DNA of 32,258 bases from an uncultured Erysipelotrichaceae bacterium (GTDB lineage: Bacteria; Bacillota_I; Bacilli_A; Erysipelotrichales; Erysipelotrichaceae). The DNA lies in NCBI GenBank assembly GCA_944326825.1, contig CALVFL010000020.1:1-32258 (forward strand). Reading direction: 5' to 3'. A program made the translations under genes and the position numbers. The notes under the pieces are model-generated. The model did no database searches. It was not told where the DNA came from and worked only from the letters and a program-made list of their open reading frames with translations. Of this stretch, positions 22,337 to 32,258 are shown piece after piece (the stretch's first letter is position 1; each line of letters begins with the position of its first letter).

Positions 22337-22451
22337 TTGTGTTTGTATATTAATATATTTGTATTTTATAATGTCATGGACTTTAGCGTATTAAGTTTAT
22401 TCAAAACTTATCTTTTGAAATATTATGCATTTTTAATTACATCATTAATCT

Positions 22452-22489
22452 TTTAATTTAGTCATTTTATAAAAAATGACTAAATTAAA
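22452..22489. promoter_or_regulatory. Perfect palindromic operator upstream of fic
   Basis: Two 17-bp arms, TTTAATTTAGTCATTTT (22452-22468) and its exact complement (22473-22489), around a 4-base centre. A third copy of the half-site AAAATGACTAAATT lies at 22494-22507, starting exactly 21 bases (two DNA turns) after the second and sitting between the -35 and -10 boxes of the fic promoter. A repressor of this promoter is the natural reading. Confidence 0.75.
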
Positions 22490-22518
22490 TTGAAAAATGA
22501 CTAAATTGAATTTATAAT
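22490..22518 (+). promoter_or_regulatory. Promoter of the fic-hsd operon
   Basis: TTGAAA (22490-22495), 17-base spacer, TATAAT (22513-22518): nearly ideal for the housekeeping sigma factor. The predicted start near 22525 leaves a short leader with GGAGG at 22532-22536. Confidence 0.8.
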
Positions 22519-22541
22519 GATGTCAAAGGATGGAGGGTGCA

Positions 22542-23597
22542 ATGAGACAATTTGAATACAAAGAAAGTTGGAAGAAATTATTAACTCCGAATATAGTTTC
22601 GCTTTTAACTTCTATTCATGAATATAAAGGGGAACAAAATTTATTTATTGAGTCTAATTCTGACAAATTGACTGAATTATTAGAGATAGCTAAAATTCAG
22701 AGCACTGAAGCTTCAAACAAGATCGAAGGAATTATTACTACAAATGAACGTTTGAAGAAACTAGTCATGGATAAGACAATGCCTAGAAGTAGAAATGAGA
22801 AAGAAATAGCTGGCTATCGTGATGTGTTAAATACAATTCATGAAAGTTATGAATATATTCCCATTAATGCTAATTATTTTCTTCAATTACACGGGGATTT
22901 ATATAAATATAATAGTTCAGGGTTTGGAGGAAAATTTAAATCTTCTGATAATATAATTGCAGAAATTGATCCTTTTGGAAATAAGATAATTAGATTTCAG
23001 CCTGTTGAAGCTTGGGCTACCCCCGAAGCTATGGCTAATATGTGTTATGCATATAATGATGCAATTAATAATGATATTGATCCATTGATACTAATGCCAT
23101 TGTTTATACTAGATTTCTTATGCATTCATCCTTTTAATGATGGCAATGGAAGAATGAGTAGACTTCTTACTTTGCTTCTGTTATATAAGTCTGGATATAT
23201 CGTTGGTAAATACATAAGTATAGAAAAGCTTATTGAGCAATCTAAAGACACCTATTATGAAGCGTTACAAGCAAGTTCTTATGAATGGCATGATAATAAA
23301 AATAATTATGAACCGTTTGTAGAATATTATCTTGGCGTAATCATCGCAGCGTACAAAGAGTTTTCTAGTCGAGTACAGACACTGATTGATTCTGGAATGA
23401 GCAAACCAGAAAGAATTCGTGAAGTTATAAGAAAACATTTAGGAAAAATTACTAAAGGACAAATCATAGAGAAATGTCCTGATATAAGCGAAACTACAAT
23501 TCAAAGAACTCTAGCGGAGTTATTAAAAAATAAAGAAATTATTAAATTGAATGGTGGAAGATATACTTCATATGTATGGAATGAGGAGAAAGAATAA
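22542..23597 (+). CDS. Fic-family protein (AMPylase-type) with winged-helix domain
   Basis: A 351-residue three-part protein. Residues about 1-95 are a Fic_N-like helical region with the inhibitory motif S58-N-K-I-E62-G63 (SxxxEG), placing it in class II, where the inhibitory helix is in the same protein. The Fic core has the complete active motif HPFNDGNGRMSR (196-207), so transfer of AMP (or a related group) to a target is expected. The last ~70 residues form a winged helix (ITKGQIIEKCPDISETTIQRTL) suited to DNA binding. The ATG 22542 is chosen over 22530, since GGAGG lies 5 bases before it. Its stop shares one base with the hsdM start (TAATG). It may regulate this operon through the palindrome upstream; the target is unknown. 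Confidence 0.9.
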   Translation: MRQFEYKESWKKLLTPNIVSLLTSIHEYKGEQNLFIESNSDKLTELLEIAKIQSTEASNKIEGIITTNERLKKLVMDKTMPRSRNEKEIAGYRDVLNTIHESYEYIPINANYFLQLHGDLYKYNSSGFGGKFKSSDNIIAEIDPFGNKIIRFQPVEAWATPEAMANMCYAYNDAINNDIDPLILMPLFILDFLCIHPFNDGNGRMSRLLTLLLLYKSGYIVGKYISIEKLIEQSKDTYYEALQASSYEWHDNKNNYEPFVEYYLGVIIAAYKEFSSRVQTLIDSGMSKPERIREVIRKHLGKITKGQIIEKCPDISETTIQRTLAELLKNKEIIKLNGGRYTSYVWNEEKE

Positions 23598-25099
23598 TGA
23601 TTACAGGTGAATTGAAAAATAAAATTGATGCTTTGTGGGATGTGTTCGCAGCAGGTGGACTAACAAATCCTCTTGAAGTAATTGAACAAATTACTTATTT
23701 AATGTTTATTCATGATTTGGACGACACAGATAATAAAAATGCAAAAGAATGCGCGATGTTAGGTTTACCATTCAAAAGTATTTTTTCTGATCGAATTAAG
23801 ATAGGTGAAAGGACGATCGACGGACAACAATTAAAATGGTCAACTTTTAGAGATTTACCAGCAAACAAAATGTATGAAACAGTTCAAGAATGGGTCTTTC
23901 CATTTATTAAAGATCTACATTCCGACAAGAATAGTGCATATTCTAAATATATGGATGATGCAATATTTAAATTACCTACGCCATTAGTATTATCTAAAGT
24001 TGTTGACTCGCTAGATGATATTTATTCATTAATGGGCAAATCAACAGAAATTGATATTCGTGGCGATGTATATGAATATCTATTATCCAAGATTTCTACC
24101 GCAGGAAGAAACGGACAGTTTAGAACTCCTAGACACATTATTCGTATGATGGTTGAATTGATGAAACCAACACCAGAGGAAATTATATGCGATCCAGCAT
24201 GCGGCACAGGTGGTTTCTTAGTAGGAGCGAGCGATTATTTAAGAGAGACATATCGTAATGATATTTTAATGAATAAAGAAAATAGAGATCATTATATGAA
24301 TCGCATGTTCTATGGATTTGACATGGATAGAACTATGCTTCGCATTGGCGCCATGAATATGATGACTCATGGTGTAGAATCTCCATTCATTGAATATAGA
24401 GATAGTTTATCTGATCAAAATATTGATACAGATAAATATTCTTTAATTCTTGCCAATCCTCCTTTTAAGGGAACCTTGGATGCTGATTCGGTATCAGCTA
24501 ATTTATTGAAAGTAGCCAAAACAAAGAAAACGGAACTATTATTTTTGGCTTTATTTATAAGAATGTTAAAGATTGGCGGACGATGCGCTTGTATTGTTCC
24601 AGATGGCGTATTATTTGGATCAAGTAAAGCTCATAAGCAAATAAGAAAAGCGATTATTGAAGATAATAGATTAGAAGCGGTTATTTCAATGCCATCAGGT
24701 GTATTTAAACCTTATGCCGGTGTATCTACAGGAATATTAATATTTACTAAAACCGGACATGGTGGAACCGATAAAGTTTGGTTCTATGACATGAAAGCTG
24801 ATGGTTATTCATTAGATGATAAGAGATCGCCAGTTAAAGAAAATGATATTCCAGATATTATTGAAAGATTTAATCATTTAGATAAAGAGACAGAACGTAA
24901 GAGAACAGAACAAAGCTTCTTGGTAGATAAGAAAGAAATAGTAGATAATGATTATGATCTTTCGATTAATAAATATAAAGAAATAATTTATGAGAAAGTA
25001 GAATATCCACCTACAAGTGAAATACTTGCTGATATTGAAGAATTAAATAAAGAAATTGATAAGAATTTAGAAGAACTGAAAGCTCTTCTAAAAGGATAG
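23597..25099 (+). CDS. hsdM: Type I restriction-modification methyltransferase subunit HsdM
   Basis: N6-adenine DNA methyltransferase of a type I system; two copies join one HsdS to form the modification enzyme. The N-terminal helical HsdM_N region (about 1-130) is followed by the SAM-binding motif CDPACGTGGFLVGA (198-211) and the catalytic motif ILANPPF (284-290, NPPF). Length 500 is normal. Start ATG overlaps the fic stop, with GAGGAG inside the end of fic. An hsdS gene follows. The base composition is clearly more AT-rich than the genes left of 22 kb. Confidence 0.95.
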   Translation: MITGELKNKIDALWDVFAAGGLTNPLEVIEQITYLMFIHDLDDTDNKNAKECAMLGLPFKSIFSDRIKIGERTIDGQQLKWSTFRDLPANKMYETVQEWVFPFIKDLHSDKNSAYSKYMDDAIFKLPTPLVLSKVVDSLDDIYSLMGKSTEIDIRGDVYEYLLSKISTAGRNGQFRTPRHIIRMMVELMKPTPEEIICDPACGTGGFLVGASDYLRETYRNDILMNKENRDHYMNRMFYGFDMDRTMLRIGAMNMMTHGVESPFIEYRDSLSDQNIDTDKYSLILANPPFKGTLDADSVSANLLKVAKTKKTELLFLALFIRMLKIGGRCACIVPDGVLFGSSKAHKQIRKAIIEDNRLEAVISMPSGVFKPYAGVSTGILIFTKTGHGGTDKVWFYDMKADGYSLDDKRSPVKENDIPDIIERFNHLDKETERKRTEQSFLVDKKEIVDNDYDLSINKYKEIIYEKVEYPPTSEILADIEELNKEIDKNLEELKALLKG

Positions 25100-25117
25100 A
25101 AAGGAGGAAGAATCTGA

Positions 25118-25153
25118 ATGGTAAATTCGGATTTGTGGGGCGATGGAATATAA
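25118..25153 (+). CDS. Possible 11-residue leader peptide before hsdS1
   Basis: The only strong ribosome site between hsdM and hsdS1, AAAGGAGG (25100-25107), is placed 10 bases before an ATG at 25118. That frame reads MVNSDLWGDGI and stops at 25151-25153, just past the out-of-frame hsdS1 ATG (25143), which itself has only a weak GTGGGG. Translation of the mini-ORF could couple to hsdS1 by re-initiation. Alternatively it is chance, a scar of recombination at this repeat. Confidence 0.35.
   Translation: MVNSDLWGDGI
25123..25152 (+). repeat. Direct repeat A, copy 1 (hsdS1 start)
   Basis: AAATTCGGATTTGT (25123-25136), then a few variable bases and ATGGAATATA (25143-25152). The same arrangement occurs at 27594-27623 before hsdS2. 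The identity reaches outside the coding sequence, so it is not explained by protein conservation. Confidence 0.8.
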
Positions 25154-26228
25154 GCGATTAGGTGATATATGTAATCCTAAGCAGTGGAAAACAATTTCTA
25201 CTAGTGATTTAACAGATACGGGGTATCCTGTTTATGGTGCAAATGGGATAATAGGTAATTATAAAGAGTATAATCATAAAAATGAAACAATACTTGTGAC
25301 TTGTAGAGGAGCGACGTGTGGAAGCGTAAATATTACACAGCCATATTCTTATGTGAATGGAAATGCAATGGCACTGGATAATTTGGATAAAAATATAGAT
25401 ATTAATTATTTGTATTTTTATCTAACATATAGGGGTTTTAATGATGTTATAAGTGGATCTGCTCAACCGCAAATTATTAGATCCGCAATAGAAAAAGTTT
25501 TAGTTCCTGTACACCCTATTGAATGGCAAAATAGATTATCTACGTTGCTTCAAAATATCAGCAAGATTAGGGAATTGTACCAAAAAGAAATTGAAAGACT
25601 TGATGAACTCATCAAAGCCCGATTTATCGAGATGTTTGGCAATCTTGAAAGCAACACAAAAAAATTTCCGGTCAAATTATTGAAAGATATATCTGAATAC
25701 TGGAATGGTTTAACATATAAACCTAATAATGTTGTAGAATCTGGAGACAAAGGAATTTTAGTGTTGCGATCCAGCAACATTCAAAGCGGCGAGTTATCTT
25801 TCAGTGATAATGTATATGTTGATTGTGCCATTAAAGACAAGCATTATGTTAAAGAAAACGATATTTTAATGTGTTCAAGGAACGGAAGTGCCAGATTAGT
25901 AGGTAAAGTAGCTTTAATTAAAGGGCTAGAAAAACCCACTTCTTTCGGGGCGTTTATGATGATTATAAGAAGCAAATACTATCCGTTTTTGAAAGTATAC
26001 TTTGAGATGCCAGAATTCAGAAAGCAGCTTGCAACAGGGACATCAACAATTAACCAAATCACTGCAGGAATGTTGAATAGTGTAAAGGTTCTAGCTCCTG
26101 ATATGACATTGGTCGAAGAGTATAAAAACTTTTGTAATCAGATAGATAAATCAAAATTAGCAGTACAGAAATCTTTAGAAAAAACACAACAACTGTTTGA
26201 TAGTTTAATGCAAGAATATTTTGGATAA
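25143..26228 (+). CDS. hsdS: Type I specificity subunit HsdS, first copy
   Basis: DNA-recognition subunit that decides the methylated and cut sequence. The 361-residue protein has the two-half design: target recognition domain 1 (about 1-145), central conserved helix with RLDELIKARFIEMFG (152-166), domain 2 (about 170-330), and distal conserved helix IDKSKLAVQKSLEKTQQLF, ending DSLMQEYFG. It is full-length and follows hsdM, so it is most likely the expressed copy. The start ATG lies in repeat A. Domain 1 begins MEYKRLGDICNPKQW and differs entirely from that of hsdS2. Repeats A, B (25616-25636) and C (26141-26157) are shared with hsdS2. Confidence 0.92.
   Translation: MEYKRLGDICNPKQWKTISTSDLTDTGYPVYGANGIIGNYKEYNHKNETILVTCRGATCGSVNITQPYSYVNGNAMALDNLDKNIDINYLYFYLTYRGFNDVISGSAQPQIIRSAIEKVLVPVHPIEWQNRLSTLLQNISKIRELYQKEIERLDELIKARFIEMFGNLESNTKKFPVKLLKDISEYWNGLTYKPNNVVESGDKGILVLRSSNIQSGELSFSDNVYVDCAIKDKHYVKENDILMCSRNGSARLVGKVALIKGLEKPTSFGAFMMIIRSKYYPFLKVYFEMPEFRKQLATGTSTINQITAGMLNSVKVLAPDMTLVEEYKNFCNQIDKSKLAVQKSLEKTQQLFDSLMQEYFG
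25616..25636 (+). repeat. Direct repeat B, copy 1 (hsdS1 centre)
   Basis: A 21-bp sequence beginning AGCCCGATTTATCGAG and ending ATGTT, identical to 28147-28167 in hsdS2 although flanking codons differ. It includes the small palindrome CGAT-TT-ATCG. It encodes ARFIEM. Confidence 0.85.
26141..26157 (+). repeat. Direct repeat C, copy 1 (hsdS1 distal)
   Basis: GATAGATAAATCAAAAT, identical to 28657-28673 in hsdS2; encodes (Q/L)IDKSK. Downstream sequences of the two genes are unrelated. Confidence 0.7.
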
Positions 26229-26270
26229 ATAATAATGGATGTAGGGATGTTGGTAATGGAGGTTACTAAC

Positions 26271-27260
26271 ATGAAAACAGAAATTATTACTGAAATTGAA
26301 CAATCGTTATTGAATTATTTGGATAATGCACAGATGGAAGTATTACATAGAGTTTTGAATCGTTGCTTTGAAGGTGTTGAAATCTGTTCAAAAGAGAATG
26401 TTGAAATATGTGAATTTACCAATGAAGAATTAATCAAAAAATTCATTTCAGCTAAAGAAATTGAAGGATGCAGTGGTAGAACTACAAAATATTATGAATC
26501 TACTTTGATAAAAATGAATTCTAAAATGGATAAAGGAATTACACATATGACAACAGATGATTTGAGAACATATTTAACAGATTACCAGAAAATTAATAAT
26601 TGTTCTAAAGCAAGCGTTGATAACATCAGGCGTAACTTAAGTAGTTTCTTTTCTTGGCTCGAGGAGGAAAATTATATTTTAAAAAGTCCAATGAAAAGAA
26701 TTCATAAGATTAAGACTGACAAAGTTATAAAAGATACGTACTCTGATGAAACATTAGAATTGTTAAGGGATAATTGTAATTGTTTAAGAGACTTAGCAAT
26801 TATCGACATATTAGCTTCCACTGGAATGAGAGTTGGAGAACTAGTTAAGTTAAATATTAATGATATTGACTTCGAAAATAGGGAATGTGTTGTGTTTGGT
26901 AAAGGGAATAAAGAAAGACCAGTTTATTTTGACGCAAGAACTAAGATTCATCTAAAGAATTATTTGAATTCTAGAAACGATTCAAACAAGGCTCTGTTTG
27001 TTTCGCTGGATAAACCTTATAACAGATTAAATATCAGTGGGATTGAAATAAGGCTAAGACAGCTAGGCAGAAGATTAGGGATTTCTAAAGTTCATCCACA
27101 CAAATTTAGGAGGACCGTAGCAACAAAAGCTATTGATAAAGGGATGCCAATAGAACAGGTTCAAAGTTTGTTAGGACATTCTCAAATTGATACGACCATG
27201 CATTATGCAATGGTAAATCAAAATAATGTTAAGGAATCTCATAGAAGATATATTTCATAG
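26271..27260 (+). CDS. XerC/D-like tyrosine recombinase of the hsd locus
   Basis: A 329-residue site-specific recombinase. The N-terminal SAM-like core-binding domain covers about 50-140 (STLIKMNSKMD, SVDNIRRNLSSFFSWLEEEN). The catalytic domain has every expected residue: R187 (TGMRVGEL), K211 (GKGNKER), H277 and R280 (HPHKFRRT), H303 (LLGHSQ) and the nucleophile Y312 (TMHYA). I chose the ATG at 26271, which has GGAGG eight bases ahead; earlier in-frame ATGs have no ribosome site. It sits between two hsdS genes on the same strand. Such recombinases shuffle hsdS in other bacteria, so the direct repeats A-C are its probable substrates. This is inference from arrangement. Confidence 0.92.
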   Translation: MKTEIITEIEQSLLNYLDNAQMEVLHRVLNRCFEGVEICSKENVEICEFTNEELIKKFISAKEIEGCSGRTTKYYESTLIKMNSKMDKGITHMTTDDLRTYLTDYQKINNCSKASVDNIRRNLSSFFSWLEEENYILKSPMKRIHKIKTDKVIKDTYSDETLELLRDNCNCLRDLAIIDILASTGMRVGELVKLNINDIDFENRECVVFGKGNKERPVYFDARTKIHLKNYLNSRNDSNKALFVSLDKPYNRLNISGIEIRLRQLGRRLGISKVHPHKFRRTVATKAIDKGMPIEQVQSLLGHSQIDTTMHYAMVNQNNVKESHRRYIS

Positions 27261-27270
27261 GAGAAAAGCT

Positions 27271-27588
27271 ATGTACGAAGTAAAAGAATCAGATTGGAAG
27301 ATTTTTAGAAAAAGAGTGCCTCAATGGCAAGAAGATTACATGAAAAAACTAAATAAAGAATACATCGAAATATTGAGCAGGGATGGATCTGCGGCTAAAA
27401 ATTTTTGGGATCTTGAAAACAGAGTTTTTAAAGATAAAAGAAGAGTTGGTGTTGTGATAGACATGAGAAGATCAAGAATGCTCATAAATTTATTGGATTT
27501 ATTAGAAGATCATGTAATAAGTCTAGAAGATTTAAATGAATTTAGTGAAGAATTAAGAAAAATGATAATTCAAATAACAGAAAGATAA
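27271..27588 (+). CDS. Unknown 105-residue protein between recombinase and hsdS2
   Basis: A small, charged, probably helical soluble protein (MYEVKESDWKIFRKRVPQWQ..., GVVIDMRRSRMLINLLDLLE, then VISLEDLNEFSEELR). I recall close relatives in Clostridia and Erysipelotrichia near type I restriction genes, sometimes mislabelled 'multidrug transporter'; it has no membrane helix. The ATG 27271 follows AGGAGA and lies 10 bases after the recombinase stop, so the two are co-translated. It may assist recombination or regulate HsdS supply; there is no direct evidence. Confidence 0.75.
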   Translation: MYEVKESDWKIFRKRVPQWQEDYMKKLNKEYIEILSRDGSAAKNFWDLENRVFKDKRRVGVVIDMRRSRMLINLLDLLEDHVISLEDLNEFSEELRKMIIQITER

Positions 27589-27593
27589 AATCC

Positions 27594-27623
27594 AAATTCG
27601 GATTTGTAGGTGTATGGAATATA
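27594..27623 (+). repeat. Direct repeat A, copy 2 (hsdS2 start)
   Basis: AAATTCGGATTTGT (27594-27607), variable bases, ATGGAATATA (27614-27623), matching 25123-25152. Unlike copy 1 it has no strong ribosome site upstream. Confidence 0.8.
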
Positions 27624-28693
27624 CAACAATAGGCGAATCATGTTCAGTAGTATCAGGAGGAACTCCTTCAAGGTCTAAAGATGAATATTGGCAAAATGGA
27701 ACCATTCCTTGGATAAAGATTGGAAATATTAAATCCAAATATGTAAATGAATACGATGAATTAATAACTGAACAAGGATTAAACAATTCTTCTGCAAAGT
27801 TATTGAAAAAAGGCACAATTCTTTACACTATATTTGCCACACTTGGAGAAGTTGGAATACTTGATACCGAGGCTTGTACAAATCAGGCAATTGCAGGAAT
27901 CACCATTAATGATTCAAGGATAACGACAGATTATTTATATTATTATTTAAAATCAAAAAAGGATTATGTTAACAATATTGGAAGAGGTGTTGCTCAAAAT
28001 AATATCAATTTAACAACTTTGAAAAAATTTGAAATTCCGTTAATCGACGTCAATAAACAATTAAACATTGTTAATACTCTTGAAAAAGCAGAGAGAATAA
28101 TAGTTTTAAAAAAGAAAGAAATTGAGTATTTAGATTTATTAATTAGAGCCCGATTTATCGAGATGTTATTAACAGGCAATTATGATGAAATACCTATTAA
28201 AGATTTAGTTGATTTAAACATCGTGTCAGCAAAAAAGACTTTTTCTTCTAACGATCTGATTCATTATATAGATATCTCATCTATTGATAATGAATCGAAT
28301 GTAATTACCTCTTATAAACATTATGCGATGAAAGATGCTCCTTCAAGAGCTCAACAATTAATTGTTTATGACGATATTCTTATATCTACTGTGAGACCTA
28401 ATTTAAGAAATATTGCACAAAATAAGGATAAAGATAGTAATTTGGTCGCCTCAAGTGGTTTTTGTATTCTGAGAGCTTCAAAATGCAATGCTCAATTTTT
28501 GTTATATTCTGTATTAACAGATGATTTCACCAATGCGATGGTTAGTAAAACTACTGGGGCTAGTTATCCAGCGATTAAAGACGACGATATTTTGAAGTAT
28601 AAAATTGCTTTACCACCAATAGAGCTCCAAAACGAATTTGCTGACTTTGTTAAACTGATAGATAAATCAAAATATGGCGGTATGTTCATATAA
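27614..28693 (+). CDS. hsdS: Type I specificity subunit HsdS, second copy, truncated tail
   Basis: A 359-residue HsdS with domain 1 (about 1-165, GGTPSRSKDEYWQNGTIPWI, typical TRD opening), the central region EYLDLLIRARFIEML (171-185), and domain 2 (about 190-340). After FVKLIDKSK the protein ends in an unrelated YGGMFI, missing the distal conserved helix of about 20 residues that hsdS1 keeps. The break coincides with repeat C. It has only a weak ribosome site (TAGG, 3-4 bases before ATG). I read it as a reserve cassette that supplies recognition domains by recombination; it could still be made at low level. No frameshifts are seen. Confidence 0.85.
   Translation: MEYTTIGESCSVVSGGTPSRSKDEYWQNGTIPWIKIGNIKSKYVNEYDELITEQGLNNSSAKLLKKGTILYTIFATLGEVGILDTEACTNQAIAGITINDSRITTDYLYYYLKSKKDYVNNIGRGVAQNNINLTTLKKFEIPLIDVNKQLNIVNTLEKAERIIVLKKKEIEYLDLLIRARFIEMLLTGNYDEIPIKDLVDLNIVSAKKTFSSNDLIHYIDISSIDNESNVITSYKHYAMKDAPSRAQQLIVYDDILISTVRPNLRNIAQNKDKDSNLVASSGFCILRASKCNAQFLLYSVLTDDFTNAMVSKTTGASYPAIKDDDILKYKIALPPIELQNEFADFVKLIDKSKYGGMFI
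28147..28167 (+). repeat. Direct repeat B, copy 2 (hsdS2 centre)
   Basis: Identical over 21 bp to 25616-25636, in the same orientation; sequences on either side diverge. Confidence 0.85.
28657..28673 (+). repeat. Direct repeat C, copy 2 (hsdS2 distal)
   Basis: GATAGATAAATCAAAAT as at 26141-26157. Homology to hsdS1 ends here and the hsdS2 frame closes six codons later. Confidence 0.7.
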
Positions 28694-28729
28694 ATGTATT
28701 AGAATATAGATATAAATAGTGAGGTGCCT

Positions 28730-31700
28730 ATGACAAATTTTGATTACTTGAAAAAAGAAAGTGAATTTGAAAGCTTTATCGATATAGCGATTATTGCGGA
28801 AAAAACATATAAAGTTGATAGTAACACTTGTATCATAAATTGTCGTAGGGCGATGGAGGCAGCCATTAAATGGATGTTTTCAGTTGATTGTGAATTAAAA
28901 GCACCTTATAAAGATAATCTTCATACTCTGATGAATTGTGATGCATTTAAGCAAATTATTGGCGATGATTTATGGAAACGTTTGGAATTTATTAGACGTT
29001 ATGGAAATGAAGCAGCTCACAATAGTGGTGAAAAAGCTAAAAATATTGCGGAAATATGTTTGAAGAATCTTTTCTATTTTATGGATTGGATAGCCTATTG
29101 TTATGGTGAAGAATATGAAGAAAGAGAATTTGACGTCTCTCTTTTAGAAAAAGAAGAAGTATCATTAATTCCAGAAGTAAATACAGATATTAATTTAGAA
29201 GCTTTGATCGAAGAGAATAAATCTTTAAAAGAAGAACTAAGCAAGCGCAGGGAACAACAGCAGAACACATATGTTGCAAAACCTTTGGATCTGTCTGAAT
29301 ATAAAACACGTAAGTTATATATTGATGCAATGCTTCTTGATGCTGGATGGGTAGAAGACAAAGACTGGGTTAACGAAGTGGAATTACCAGGTATGCCTAA
29401 TAAATCGGAAGTAGGATATGCTGATTATGTTTTGTATGATGATACGCAAAAACCTTTAGCTGTTATTGAAGCTAAACGAACATGTATAGATGTTTCTAAA
29501 GGTAGACAACAAGGGATCTTATATGCTGATATTTTAGAAAAACAATATGGGCGAAGACCGGTTATCTTCCTTACAAATGGTTTTGAAACAAGAATTATAG
29601 ATAATCAATATCCAGAAAGAAAAGTGTCTTCTATTTACTCTAAGAGAGATTTAGAGAAGTATTTCAATTTAATGAGCACTAGAGCTCATTTGAAATTTAT
29701 CGATATAAACAAAGACATTGCCGGTAGATATTATCAAGAAGAAGCTATTAGAGCTGTTTGCGAAGCTTTTGATCTACGGAATAAAAGGAAAGCATTACTA
29801 GTTATGGCGACCGGTTCTGGCAAGACAAGAACTGTCATTGGACTTGTAGATGTACTTTTAAATGAAGGCTGGATCAAGAATATATTATTCTTAGCTGACA
29901 GAAATTCACTTGTTACACAAGCAAAAAGAAGTTTTGTGAATATGCTTCCAAACTTATCGGCTACAAACTTAGTGGAAGATAAGTCGAATTATAATGCGCA
30001 TGTGGTCTTTTCAACATATCAGACAATGATTGGATGCATAGATACTGTTAAAGAAAATGATAAAAAGCTATTTACTTGCGGTCATTTTGATCTGATTATT
30101 TGTGATGAAGCGCATAGATCAATTTATAACAAGTACAAAGATATTTTTACTTATTTTGATGCTCATATTATTGGGCTTACAGCTACTCCTAAAGATGAAA
30201 TTGACAAAAATACATATGAGATATTTGAATTAGAAAATGGTGTTCCTACATATGGATATGAACTTTCTCAAGCGGTAAAGGATGGATATTTAGTCGATTT
30301 TCTTTCAGTAGAGACAGAATTAAAATTTATATCTGAAGGTATTGCGTGGGATCAGTTGTCTGATGAAGAAAAGGAAGAATATGAAGATACATTTGCAAAT
30401 GAAAATGGGTATGTACCAGAACGCATCGATTCTTCTGCATTAAATTCGTGGGTATTTAACGAGGATACAATACGAAAAGTATTAAAGACTTTATTTAATT
30501 ATGGTATTACGGTTGATTATGGTCAAAAAATCGGAAAGACGATTATCTTTGCAAAGAATCATAAACATGCAGAAACAATATATGAAGTATTTAATAAAGA
30601 GTATCCAGATTTGAATGGTTATGCAAAAGTTATTGATAATACAATCAATTATGTCCAAAGTGCGATAGATGAATTTTCGGATGCTAATAAACTTCCACAG
30701 ATTGCAATTTCAGTAGATATGCTTGATACGGGAATCGATGTTCCTGAAGTAGTTAATCTTGTTTTCTTTAAAAAAGTGATGAGTAAGGCAAAATTCTGGC
30801 AAATGATCGGAAGAGGAACTAGGTTGTGCCCAGGATTATTAGATGGAAACGATAAAAAAGAATTTTATATTTTTGACTTCTGTGGAAACTTTGAATTTTT
30901 TAGAATGAATAAGGGCAAAGCTTCTGCAAATGCCATAGCTGTACATGGAGCGATCTTTAATTTGAAGTTCCAAATCGCATATAAATTACAGGATCTGACT
31001 TATCAAACAGAGGAACTGAAAGAATGGCGAAAACAACTAGTTGAAGAAATGGTTAGTAAGGTGAAGGAATTGGATCGTAATAAGTTTGATGTTCGGCAAC
31101 ATATTAAATATGTAGATTTATATTCTAATCCTGACAATTATACTTCTTTGACATATGAAAATTGTCTGGATGTGAAAGATGAACTTGTACCATTAATTAA
31201 ACCAGATGATGATGAGATTAGTGCAGTTCGTTTTGATGCATTGATGCATGGGATTGAATTAGCGCATCTGGCACAGAAAAAATATCCTAAGTATAAAAAA
31301 GATCTTCTAAAGAAGGTTAAGGGCGTATCAAGTGTTGCGAATATTCCCGAAATACAAGTCCAGTCTGAACTTTTAGATAAAATTCTGCATACTAATTATT
31401 TAGAAGAATGTGATATTGATGATTTTGAAATAATCAGAAAGAATCTTCGAGATCTGATTAAATATATTCCTAAAAAAGGAAAAGTTTATATGACAGATTT
31501 TGAGGATGATATTTTGTCTGTTAATTGGAATGAATCCGATTTGGAAAATGATGATTTACAAAATTATAAAGATAAGCTTGAATATTATATTAAACAACAT
31601 CAAGAAGATAATCCAGTAATCATGAAATTAAAAGAAAATAAACCTTTAAATAAAAATGATGTGGATGAGTTAGAAAAAATCATATGGAATCAGCTTGGAA

Positions 31701-32026
31701 CTAAACAAGATTATTATTCTGAAGTTGGCGAAAAACCGCTTGGTGAATTTGTACGCGAAATAGTTGGTCTGGATATGAATGCTGCCAAAGAAGCTTTCTC
31801 TAAATATTTGGACGAAAGAGAAATGAACAGGAATCAGATCTATTTTGTAAATCAAATTGTTGAATATATTGTTCGTAATGGAGTGATGAAAGATTTGTCT
31901 GTTCTGCAAGAATCACCATTTATTGATAAAGGAAATGTTGTTGAACTGTTTGGTGATAACATTAAATTGTGGAGTGGTATTCAAAGCGTTATAAATAGCA
32001 TCAACAAGAACGCAATTTATTCTTAA
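28730..32026 (+). CDS. hsdR: Type I restriction subunit HsdR
   Basis: The motor and nuclease subunit that pulls DNA through the complex and cuts unmodified DNA. The 1098-residue protein has: an N-terminal DUF4145-like helical domain (about 1-125, RRAMEAAIKWMF, NEAAHN); a PD-(D/E)xK nuclease with D232 and E247-A-K249 (ADYVLYDD...LAVIEAKR); Walker A LVMATGSGKTRT (357-368); DEAH box IICDEAHRS (456-464); GLTATPKDE; and motif VI FWQMIGRGTRLCPG. A C-terminal helical region follows. The ATG 28730 lies behind GAGGTG; a GTG two codons earlier overlaps that site. It is the last gene of the operon, after hsdS2, and appears intact. Confidence 0.94.
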   Translation: MTNFDYLKKESEFESFIDIAIIAEKTYKVDSNTCIINCRRAMEAAIKWMFSVDCELKAPYKDNLHTLMNCDAFKQIIGDDLWKRLEFIRRYGNEAAHNSGEKAKNIAEICLKNLFYFMDWIAYCYGEEYEEREFDVSLLEKEEVSLIPEVNTDINLEALIEENKSLKEELSKRREQQQNTYVAKPLDLSEYKTRKLYIDAMLLDAGWVEDKDWVNEVELPGMPNKSEVGYADYVLYDDTQKPLAVIEAKRTCIDVSKGRQQGILYADILEKQYGRRPVIFLTNGFETRIIDNQYPERKVSSIYSKRDLEKYFNLMSTRAHLKFIDINKDIAGRYYQEEAIRAVCEAFDLRNKRKALLVMATGSGKTRTVIGLVDVLLNEGWIKNILFLADRNSLVTQAKRSFVNMLPNLSATNLVEDKSNYNAHVVFSTYQTMIGCIDTVKENDKKLFTCGHFDLIICDEAHRSIYNKYKDIFTYFDAHIIGLTATPKDEIDKNTYEIFELENGVPTYGYELSQAVKDGYLVDFLSVETELKFISEGIAWDQLSDEEKEEYEDTFANENGYVPERIDSSALNSWVFNEDTIRKVLKTLFNYGITVDYGQKIGKTIIFAKNHKHAETIYEVFNKEYPDLNGYAKVIDNTINYVQSAIDEFSDANKLPQIAISVDMLDTGIDVPEVVNLVFFKKVMSKAKFWQMIGRGTRLCPGLLDGNDKKEFYIFDFCGNFEFFRMNKGKASANAIAVHGAIFNLKFQIAYKLQDLTYQTEELKEWRKQLVEEMVSKVKELDRNKFDVRQHIKYVDLYSNPDNYTSLTYENCLDVKDELVPLIKPDDDEISAVRFDALMHGIELAHLAQKKYPKYKKDLLKKVKGVSSVANIPEIQVQSELLDKILHTNYLEECDIDDFEIIRKNLRDLIKYIPKKGKVYMTDFEDDILSVNWNESDLENDDLQNYKDKLEYYIKQHQEDNPVIMKLKENKPLNKNDVDELEKIIWNQLGTKQDYYSEVGEKPLGEFVREIVGLDMNAAKEAFSKYLDEREMNRNQIYFVNQIVEYIVRNGVMKDLSVLQESPFIDKGNVVELFGDNIKLWSGIQSVINSINKNAIYS

Positions 32027-32258
32027 CAGATGCATATCGATGTTTAGGTTATACATTGATTATGCCAGAATGTAAGTACTATATAGACTCCAAACTTTCA
32101 ATAACTTTAGGAATTTAGATACTTCTTCCATCCTCGTATATTAAGTTCGACAGATATATCACCTTATCTGTCATAAGGTCTAAGTCCTATGTTATATAAT
32201 CCTCTTGTAGGATTATATGCAGGCAAGCTCTTTTCCCTCCTGTAGCTCCGAAAGGATG
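32027..32258. other. Gene-less, hairpin-rich end of the window
   Basis: There is no supported gene after hsdR. Two strong inverted repeats occur: GACAGATA / TATCTGTC (32149-32172) and ATATAATCCT / AGGATTATAT (32194-32218, loop CTTGT). Neither is followed by a T-run, so they are not ordinary terminators. The minus strand holds short open stretches without good starts. This may be the edge of another mobile element or a structured RNA cut by the window end. Confidence 0.45.

Follow-up and report, generated by a model that had tools for sequence, protein, structure and literature searches.

A probable tvr-like, translocating type I restriction-modification locus with three direct-repeat pairs in an uncultured Erysipelotrichaceae bacterium

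A type I restriction-modification (R-M) locus of an uncultured Erysipelotrichaceae bacterium, a member of the family that also comprises Holdemania, Holdemanella and Faecalicoccus, was analyzed in a DNA stretch of 32,258 nucleotides (nt). This stretch, called the window below, was contig C20 of a metagenome-assembled genome (MAG) of 1.38 Mb that was 83% complete. It was concluded, with a probability of about 0.85, that this is a translocating, tvr-type phase-variable locus, in which the target recognition domains (TRDs) of the specificity subunit HsdS would be exchanged by excision and reintegration through a TvrR-like recombinase. The case for a locus that works like tvr is strong: the anatomy, the shared core of the repeats, the module boundaries, the reassortment of TRDs among relatives, and a relative of apparently excised form with a branch at site A could all be read from the sequences. 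From these we infer switching in the organism of the window itself.

The genes of the locus occupied positions 23597-32026 and were all encoded on the + strand:

23597..25099, + strand: hsdM, type I methyltransferase of 500 amino acids (aa) (PF02384, PF12161; PADLOC MTase_I)
25143..26228, + strand: hsdS1, full-length specificity subunit of 361 aa (PF01420)
26235..27260, + strand: tyrosine recombinase, XerA/TvrR-like, 341 aa (PF00589, E=7.5e-37; NCBIfam XerA)
27271..27588, + strand: 105-aa open reading frame (ORF), just 5' of site A2
27614..28693, + strand: hsdS2, 359 aa, probable silent donor (PF01420; no strong Shine-Dalgarno sequence, without the 25-codon tail)
28724..32026, + strand: hsdR, type I restriction subunit of 1100 aa (PF04851, PF08463, PF04313; PADLOC REase_I)

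HsdM, HsdS and HsdR were thus encoded together, as in type I R-M systems, and no further hsdS was found in the genome assembly. The arrangement agreed with the first-pass annotation of this DNA, which had described two same-strand hsdS genes with a complete tyrosine recombinase between them. The recombinase ORF was intact, aligned with PDB entry 4a8e and contained the R-K-H-R-H-Y motifs.

Three pairs of direct repeats (A, B and C) were located in the same order, in the same orientation and at matching places in hsdS1 and hsdS2:

25123..25136, + strand: site A1 (AAATTCGGATTTGT), hsdS1 start; homology with F. acidiformans extends to 25154 and then ends
25614..25636, + strand: site B1 (AAAGCCCGATTTATCGAGATGTT), central conserved region of hsdS1
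26141..26157, + strand: site C1 (GATAGATAAATCAAAAT), with the fixed 25-codon hsdS1 tail 3' of it; homology with relatives restarts at 26137/26138
27594..27607, + strand: site A2 (AAATTCGGATTTGT), hsdS2 start; the constant module of relative L034 ends here (27610)
28145..28167, + strand: site B2 (AGAGCCCGATTTATCGAGATGTT)
28657..28673, + strand: site C2 (GATAGATAAATCAAAAT); homology with F. acidiformans restarts at 28620

The copies matched exactly over 14 nt in pair A (25123 and 27594, with 37/50 identical positions over a longer block), 21 nt in pair B (25616 and 28147) and 17 nt in pair C (26141 and 28657), and these were the only exact matches of at least 12 nt between the hsdS1 and hsdS2 regions. 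Among 1000 dinucleotide shuffles, 26, 2 and 0 produced a longest match that extended to 14, 17 and 21 nt, respectively, and 2 had a match of at least 14 nt at the observed spacing. The recognition domains lying between the repeats showed ~40% nucleotide identity, which was the background level of unrelated sequences. The shared blocks and the different recognition domains reported earlier for the two genes were therefore both recovered.

A 12-bp core, AAA[TG]YNNRATTT, was common to all three sites and had the same orientation in each. In the window, the core was matched in full at A and B, except for one mismatch at B2 (AGAGCCCGATTT), and C1 and C2 departed from it at one to two positions of the 3' end. 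Repeats at the same places, with the same core and orientation, were present in ~35 related same-strand loci, where the core took the form AAATTSRGATTTGTAGGG just 5' of the start codon (A), AAAKCCCGATTTRTCGAGATGTT (B) and GACAAATCAAAATTTG (C). Some methylases were mislabelled as hsdS when genes of related loci were annotated; those hsdS and recombinase genes on which the conclusions are based had the right length and position.

The repeats could instead belong to a static duplicated hsdS locus, in which they would reflect coding conservation of HsdS while the TRDs diversify slowly by homologous recombination and horizontal transfer. The location of B and C within conserved HsdS helices is in line with such an origin, but the DNA of the sites is not. 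Most of site A precedes the start codon, and the site is conserved at the DNA level. The B-site DNA motif was recorded in 65/95 recombinase-linked hsdS genes and in 0/22 control genes, which came from loci of the family in genomes without the recombinase, except that L175 and L181 belonged to a genome (G170) that has one elsewhere. The Phe codon at B was TTT in 77/77 sites, as against 78% in the remainder of these genes, and the Arg codon was CGA in 49/63, as against 14%. One control gene (L176) encoded the same peptide, KSRFVEMF, with the core broken. Since codon choice at B is fixed, the DNA, and not the protein alone, is under constraint. Repeats of 14-21 nt are also poor substrates for RecA, which counts against slow homologous recombination as the source of TRD diversity.

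The boundaries of the exchanged modules were examined by comparing the window with relatives, one genome per species. The locus of the commensal relative Faecalicoccus acidiformans was 89-90% identical to the window at the nucleotide level over 22452-25154, 26138-27643 and 28620-32030. These three blocks correspond to fic (a Fic-family gene 5' of hsdM) through hsdM to A1, to C1-recombinase-ORF-A2, and to C2-hsdR, and their edges fell at or close to A1, C1, A2 and C2. Between the blocks, B alone matched, apart from a 127-nt stretch of 71% identity at one TRD1 start. The same homology edges were found in L034, L052, L033 and L112 for the parts that were present. Two further loci separated the TRDs from each other: in L042, both hsdS genes had the same TRD2 (no difference over the 561 nt between B and C) and unrelated TRD1s, and in L065 both had the same TRD1 (~97% from A to B) and unrelated TRD2s. 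The boundaries of TRD1 and TRD2 were no more than a few nt away from the sites.

Comparison of hsdS domain order in related genomes, which the first-pass annotation had suggested as a check, revealed the same modules on opposite sides of the recombinase. A TRD module of 97.7% identity was shared in this way by L038 and L039 (recombinases 96.8% identical), and one of 98.8% by L064 and L066 (recombinases 94.6%). TRDs on both sides were seen in L038/L039/L043, L064/L066 and L067/L107; one TRD1 module was 5' of the recombinase in L067 and 3' of it in L107, with different partners, and one TRD2 module was paired with several TRD1 partners. Moreover, 6/19 contig ends examined in such loci lay within 10 nt of a site, as against 1.2% for random points. 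Relatives that reassort TRDs over evolutionary time, as well as a window assembly with no alternative arrangement, would also be compatible with a static locus, but TRD edges that coincide with the sites within a few nt, and a branch point within a population located precisely at the A core (described below), would not be expected from it. Together with the DNA conservation at A and B, this makes the static explanation very unlikely.

A relative lacking the recombinase, locus L204 of genome G195, was close to the window in the end of hsdM and the leader (93% identical) and in hsdR (87.5%). It had a single hsdS with A, B and C and a short, tail-less end of the hsdS2 type, followed by hsdR, and the C1-recombinase-A2 module was absent from the G195 genome, which was 99% complete. 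Judged by its sequence, L204 is in the form expected to result from any A-A, B-B or C-C excision. The G195 contig that carries hsdM (C49) ended on AAATTCGGATTT and overlapped contig C74 by exactly 77 nt, so that the two branch at the end of the A core; at its other end, C74 had a stretch of ~77 nt in common with other contigs. An exact 77-nt overlap is what a branch in a de Bruijn graph would leave, and it was read as such. Because the branch lies at A1, the sampled G195 population probably held more than one sequence past the A core. Two other loci with a single hsdS (L200 and L201) were rejected as excision products because the full hsdS tail was kept and other genes preceded hsdR. L205 was uninformative due to unread bases at the hsdS end.

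Earlier, the direct repeats had been taken to predict excision of a circle or cassette exchange, with chimeric HsdS proteins as the outcome. The site-bounded modules, the TRDs shared across the recombinase and the recombinase-less relative that is polymorphic at A all support that prediction. The following sequence of events was proposed. The TvrR-like recombinase would act at six sites, forming the three homotypic direct pairs A, B and C. One crossover at one pair would release a circle with the recombinase, the 105-aa ORF and TRD modules, and reinsertion of the circle at the same pair would restore the locus. Excision at A with reinsertion at B would exchange TRD1, excision at B with reinsertion at C would exchange TRD2, and excision at A with reinsertion at C would exchange both. 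Four TRDs would thus give four HsdS1 proteins and four methylation and restriction specificities, with the recombinase and all modules retained. That the recombinase acts in this way here, that a circle forms, how many states exist and how methylation changes are all predictions of this scheme.

The scheme depends on the unequal equipment of the two hsdS positions, for which two further elements at the first position were listed:

25102..25107, + strand: strong Shine-Dalgarno sequence AGGAGG, fixed 5' of A1 and missing at A2
25118..25153, + strand: leader mini-ORF (MVNSDLWGDGI and a stop), overlapping A1 and the hsdS1 start; analogous MINSDL-type mini-ORFs are present in L032, L033 and L052

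The Shine-Dalgarno and leader element was also absent at A2 in the closest relatives of the window, and translational coupling of the mini-ORF with hsdS1 is possible. Past C1, hsdS1 continued with a tail of 25 codons, whereas hsdS2 stopped 8 codons after repeat C. Across the loci, the tail was ~25 codons long in nearly every upstream hsdS and 2-37 in the downstream ones. As the strong Shine-Dalgarno sequence and the 25-aa C-terminal tail are found at the first position only, hsdS2 is probably a silent store of modules. After each complete exchange, the Shine-Dalgarno and leader element 5' of A1 and the tail 3' of C1 would stay in place, and full-length HsdS would be made from the first gene only.

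The earlier claim about single-pair excision was retained in part. It had held that recombination at B-B would fuse domain 1 of hsdS1 to domain 2 of hsdS2 and drop the recombinase, and L204 does have the form expected of such an event. However, simple excision at A, B or C would leave the short 3' end of hsdS2, and a tail-less HsdS is presumably inactive. The productive outcome would therefore be reintegration at a different site, which would restore the tail and keep the recombinase. If the circle were lost, the locus would be locked with one tail-less hsdS.

Several points weigh against a translocating switch in this organism. The A pair is short, with 14 nt exact. The window TRD modules that could be delimited did not cluster with modules of the relatives at 75% identity, so that reassortment of these particular domains was not seen, and the assembly that contains the window showed no second arrangement. 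The contrast in Shine-Dalgarno sequences between A1 and A2 extended to the nearest relatives; the Lachnospiraceae loci did not show it. In G195, the branch could come from co-occurring strains rather than from switching within one clone, and the recombinase could be missing due to the binning of short contigs. A former shuffler that is now frozen, its recombinase intact and yet inactive or unexpressed in this lineage, would explain the single arrangement and the lack of any TRD in common with relatives at ≥75% identity, and the deviation of the C-site cores at their last bases could be a further sign of it. Nevertheless, the recombinase ORF is intact, with its catalytic motifs and 95% identity to that of F. 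acidiformans, and both copies of each site have stayed identical over 14-21 nt despite diverged flanks. A frozen locus was accordingly considered unlikely.

The relationships of the recombinase bear on the direction of the repeats. The enzyme was placed in the TvrR family by its 61% identity to the recombinase of the streptococcal locus L111 and its position on the same tree branch, the pneumococcal TvrR itself being outside the comparison; L111 is laid out like tvr, and a Fic/DOC gene separates its hsdS from the recombinase. The layout hsdM-hsdS-recombinase-hsdS-hsdR on one strand, with repeats at the A, B and C positions, recurred in dozens of loci, and the architecture and core were found in gut and rumen Bacillota as well as in Bacteroidota, Fibrobacterota, Synergistota and other genomes. 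Elsewhere in the tree, homologous recombinases serve inverted hsdS genes with inverted cores, in Streptococcus, Lactococcus and Ligilactobacillus. The present layout might then be one state of an inversion-type switch resembling ivr/SpnIII, and the partly palindromic core makes inversion conceivable. No inverted A, B or C pair was found in the window, however, and the same-strand layout was observed in 57/59 members of the branch of the window recombinase. Layout labels clustered on the recombinase tree (7 changes, as against 26 in shuffles), with moderate clade support and with some same-strand labels in the inverting part derived from incomplete loci. Inversion was consequently regarded as an extremely improbable explanation of this locus.

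Excision or exchange at direct repeats is not a new principle. In the pneumococcal tvr (SpnIV) locus, circular intermediates, reintegration and dependence on the recombinase were shown experimentally (Kwun et al. 2018; PMC6265443), and that locus has direct repeats of two types with a common core of ~11 bp and a shortened form without the recombinase (PMC6265443). The window and tvr share the order hsdM-hsdS-recombinase-hsdS-hsdR, with all genes in one direction and an hsdS on either side of the recombinase, direct repeats of at least two types with a single core in one orientation, and a tyrosine recombinase of the same family. The relatives of the window additionally share with tvr the movement of TRD modules across the recombinase and a recombinase-less form. 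The main difference is the third site, A, 5' of both genes, which would make TRD1 exchangeable; the first TRD of tvr is immobile, which its authors attributed to the missing 5' repeat (PMC6265443). A 5' repeat at both hsdS genes was found in the window and some 15 relatives; among relatives, TRD1 modules turned up on both sides. A second difference is that tvr carries tvrAT (Phd-Doc homologues) in its mobile part, and an attenuator, while the mobile part of the window holds the 105-aa ORF only, with no family match, and a Fic gene lies 5' of hsdM. In pneumococcus, tvrAT is a regulatory accessory that takes no part in the recombination mechanism. As there is no tvrAT inside, the locus was filed as a variant working like tvr rather than as tvr itself.

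It was tentatively proposed, at somewhat less than even odds, that the window locus is a two-dimensional tvr switch, in which the third direct repeat, located at the start codon, would allow each of the two recognition halves to be exchanged on its own between a fixed expression platform (leader 5' of A1, tail 3' of C1) and a silent donor, with the tail-less excised state as a distinct form. If this is true, excision alone may switch off or change the enzyme for as long as the circle is out.

The ivr/SpnIII systems (S. pneumoniae, S. suis, L. monocytogenes, and the L. cremoris plasmid loci L128-L131) resemble the window in having a tyrosine recombinase, exchange of half-gene TRDs at conserved HsdS positions and a donor hsdS that is silent (probably so in the window). 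They use inverted repeats and inversion, whereas all repeats of the window are direct, so that a cycle of deletion and reinsertion is needed; inverted repeats between opposed hsdS genes were not found in the window. Movement of hsdS domains in Helicobacter pylori has been cited as a precedent (PMC6265443). There, too, TRD-encoding sequences move among hsdS positions, as in loci of the window type. To our knowledge, no dedicated recombinase is present at the H. pylori locus. A REBASE survey of switching type I systems was aimed at inverted repeats (PMC7394358), and the direct-repeat translocating class is therefore probably under-recognised. The pneumococcal tvr was the only experimental proof of excision and reintegration of HsdS domains found in the literature, while the architecture described here occurs in many bacterial groups, and a methylome switch may have gone unnoticed in numerous commensals. 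With the core and the arrangement of three sites defined, existing long-read data can be searched for exact junctions.

The neighbourhood of the locus 5' of hsdM contained the following features:

22439..22523: AAATGACTAAATT motifs, repeated in inverted and direct orientation, operator-like, directly 5' of fic; the sequence is also 5' of fic in the F. acidiformans locus
22530..23597, + strand: fic, Fic-family gene (SoFic-like), first of the conserved block (PF02661, E=3e-15)

The fic gene at 22530 opens the + strand run ahead of hsdM, and it was kept together with hsdM in L032, L112, L034 and L052. In five loci, the conserved block began with fic, and the 5' AAATGACTAAATT repeats of the window resemble an autoregulated operator. 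In the pneumococcal locus, shuffling is repressed by TvrT, a member of the Fic/Doc family, so a regulatory role for the fic of the window is conceivable. Between the window and F. acidiformans, the stretch from fic to A1 was 89% identical, yet TruA, encoded on the same window contig, was only 39% identical. Thus, the segment 22452-32030 looks to have moved as a unit by recent horizontal transfer. The 105-aa ORF had no matches in Pfam, NCBIfam or PADLOC. Its homologues were present in four loci: adjoining the recombinase in two of them (L032 and L034), in the interval from hsdM to hsdS1 in L042, and close to the beginning of L044.

Searches of plasmids and of IMG/VR returned several near-identical loci and five loci, respectively, mostly of the inverting type in both cases. 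Near-identical plasmids of dairy Lactococcus (L. cremoris; L128-L131) carried a recombinase of the same family and inverted hsdS halves, and differed by inversions between the halves, which is evidence, at the level of strains, that plasmid-borne copies switch. Pieces of such bacterial R-M loci were also present in contigs of human faecal viromes that are labelled Bacteriophage sp. (L141-L144), and cellular contamination or packaged DNA is possible; virome contigs of 5-6 kb with the recombinase were not used as sequenced circles, as they are on record as linear. A homologous recombinase (56%) was encoded on a 174-kb plasmid of the archaeon Methanosphaera sp. ISO3-F5 (L132/L133); the two versions of the plasmid had the same annotated genes around the recombinase, with no hsdM or hsdR beside it. 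A same-strand hsdM-hsdS-recombinase-hsdS order was found in a MAG labelled Candidatus Bathycorpusculum (L057), an archaeal label which could be a binning error. Finally, L112, L123 and L124, with a recombinase split in two ORFs (G094) or fragmented R-M genes (G002), were noted as decayed or error-prone copies.

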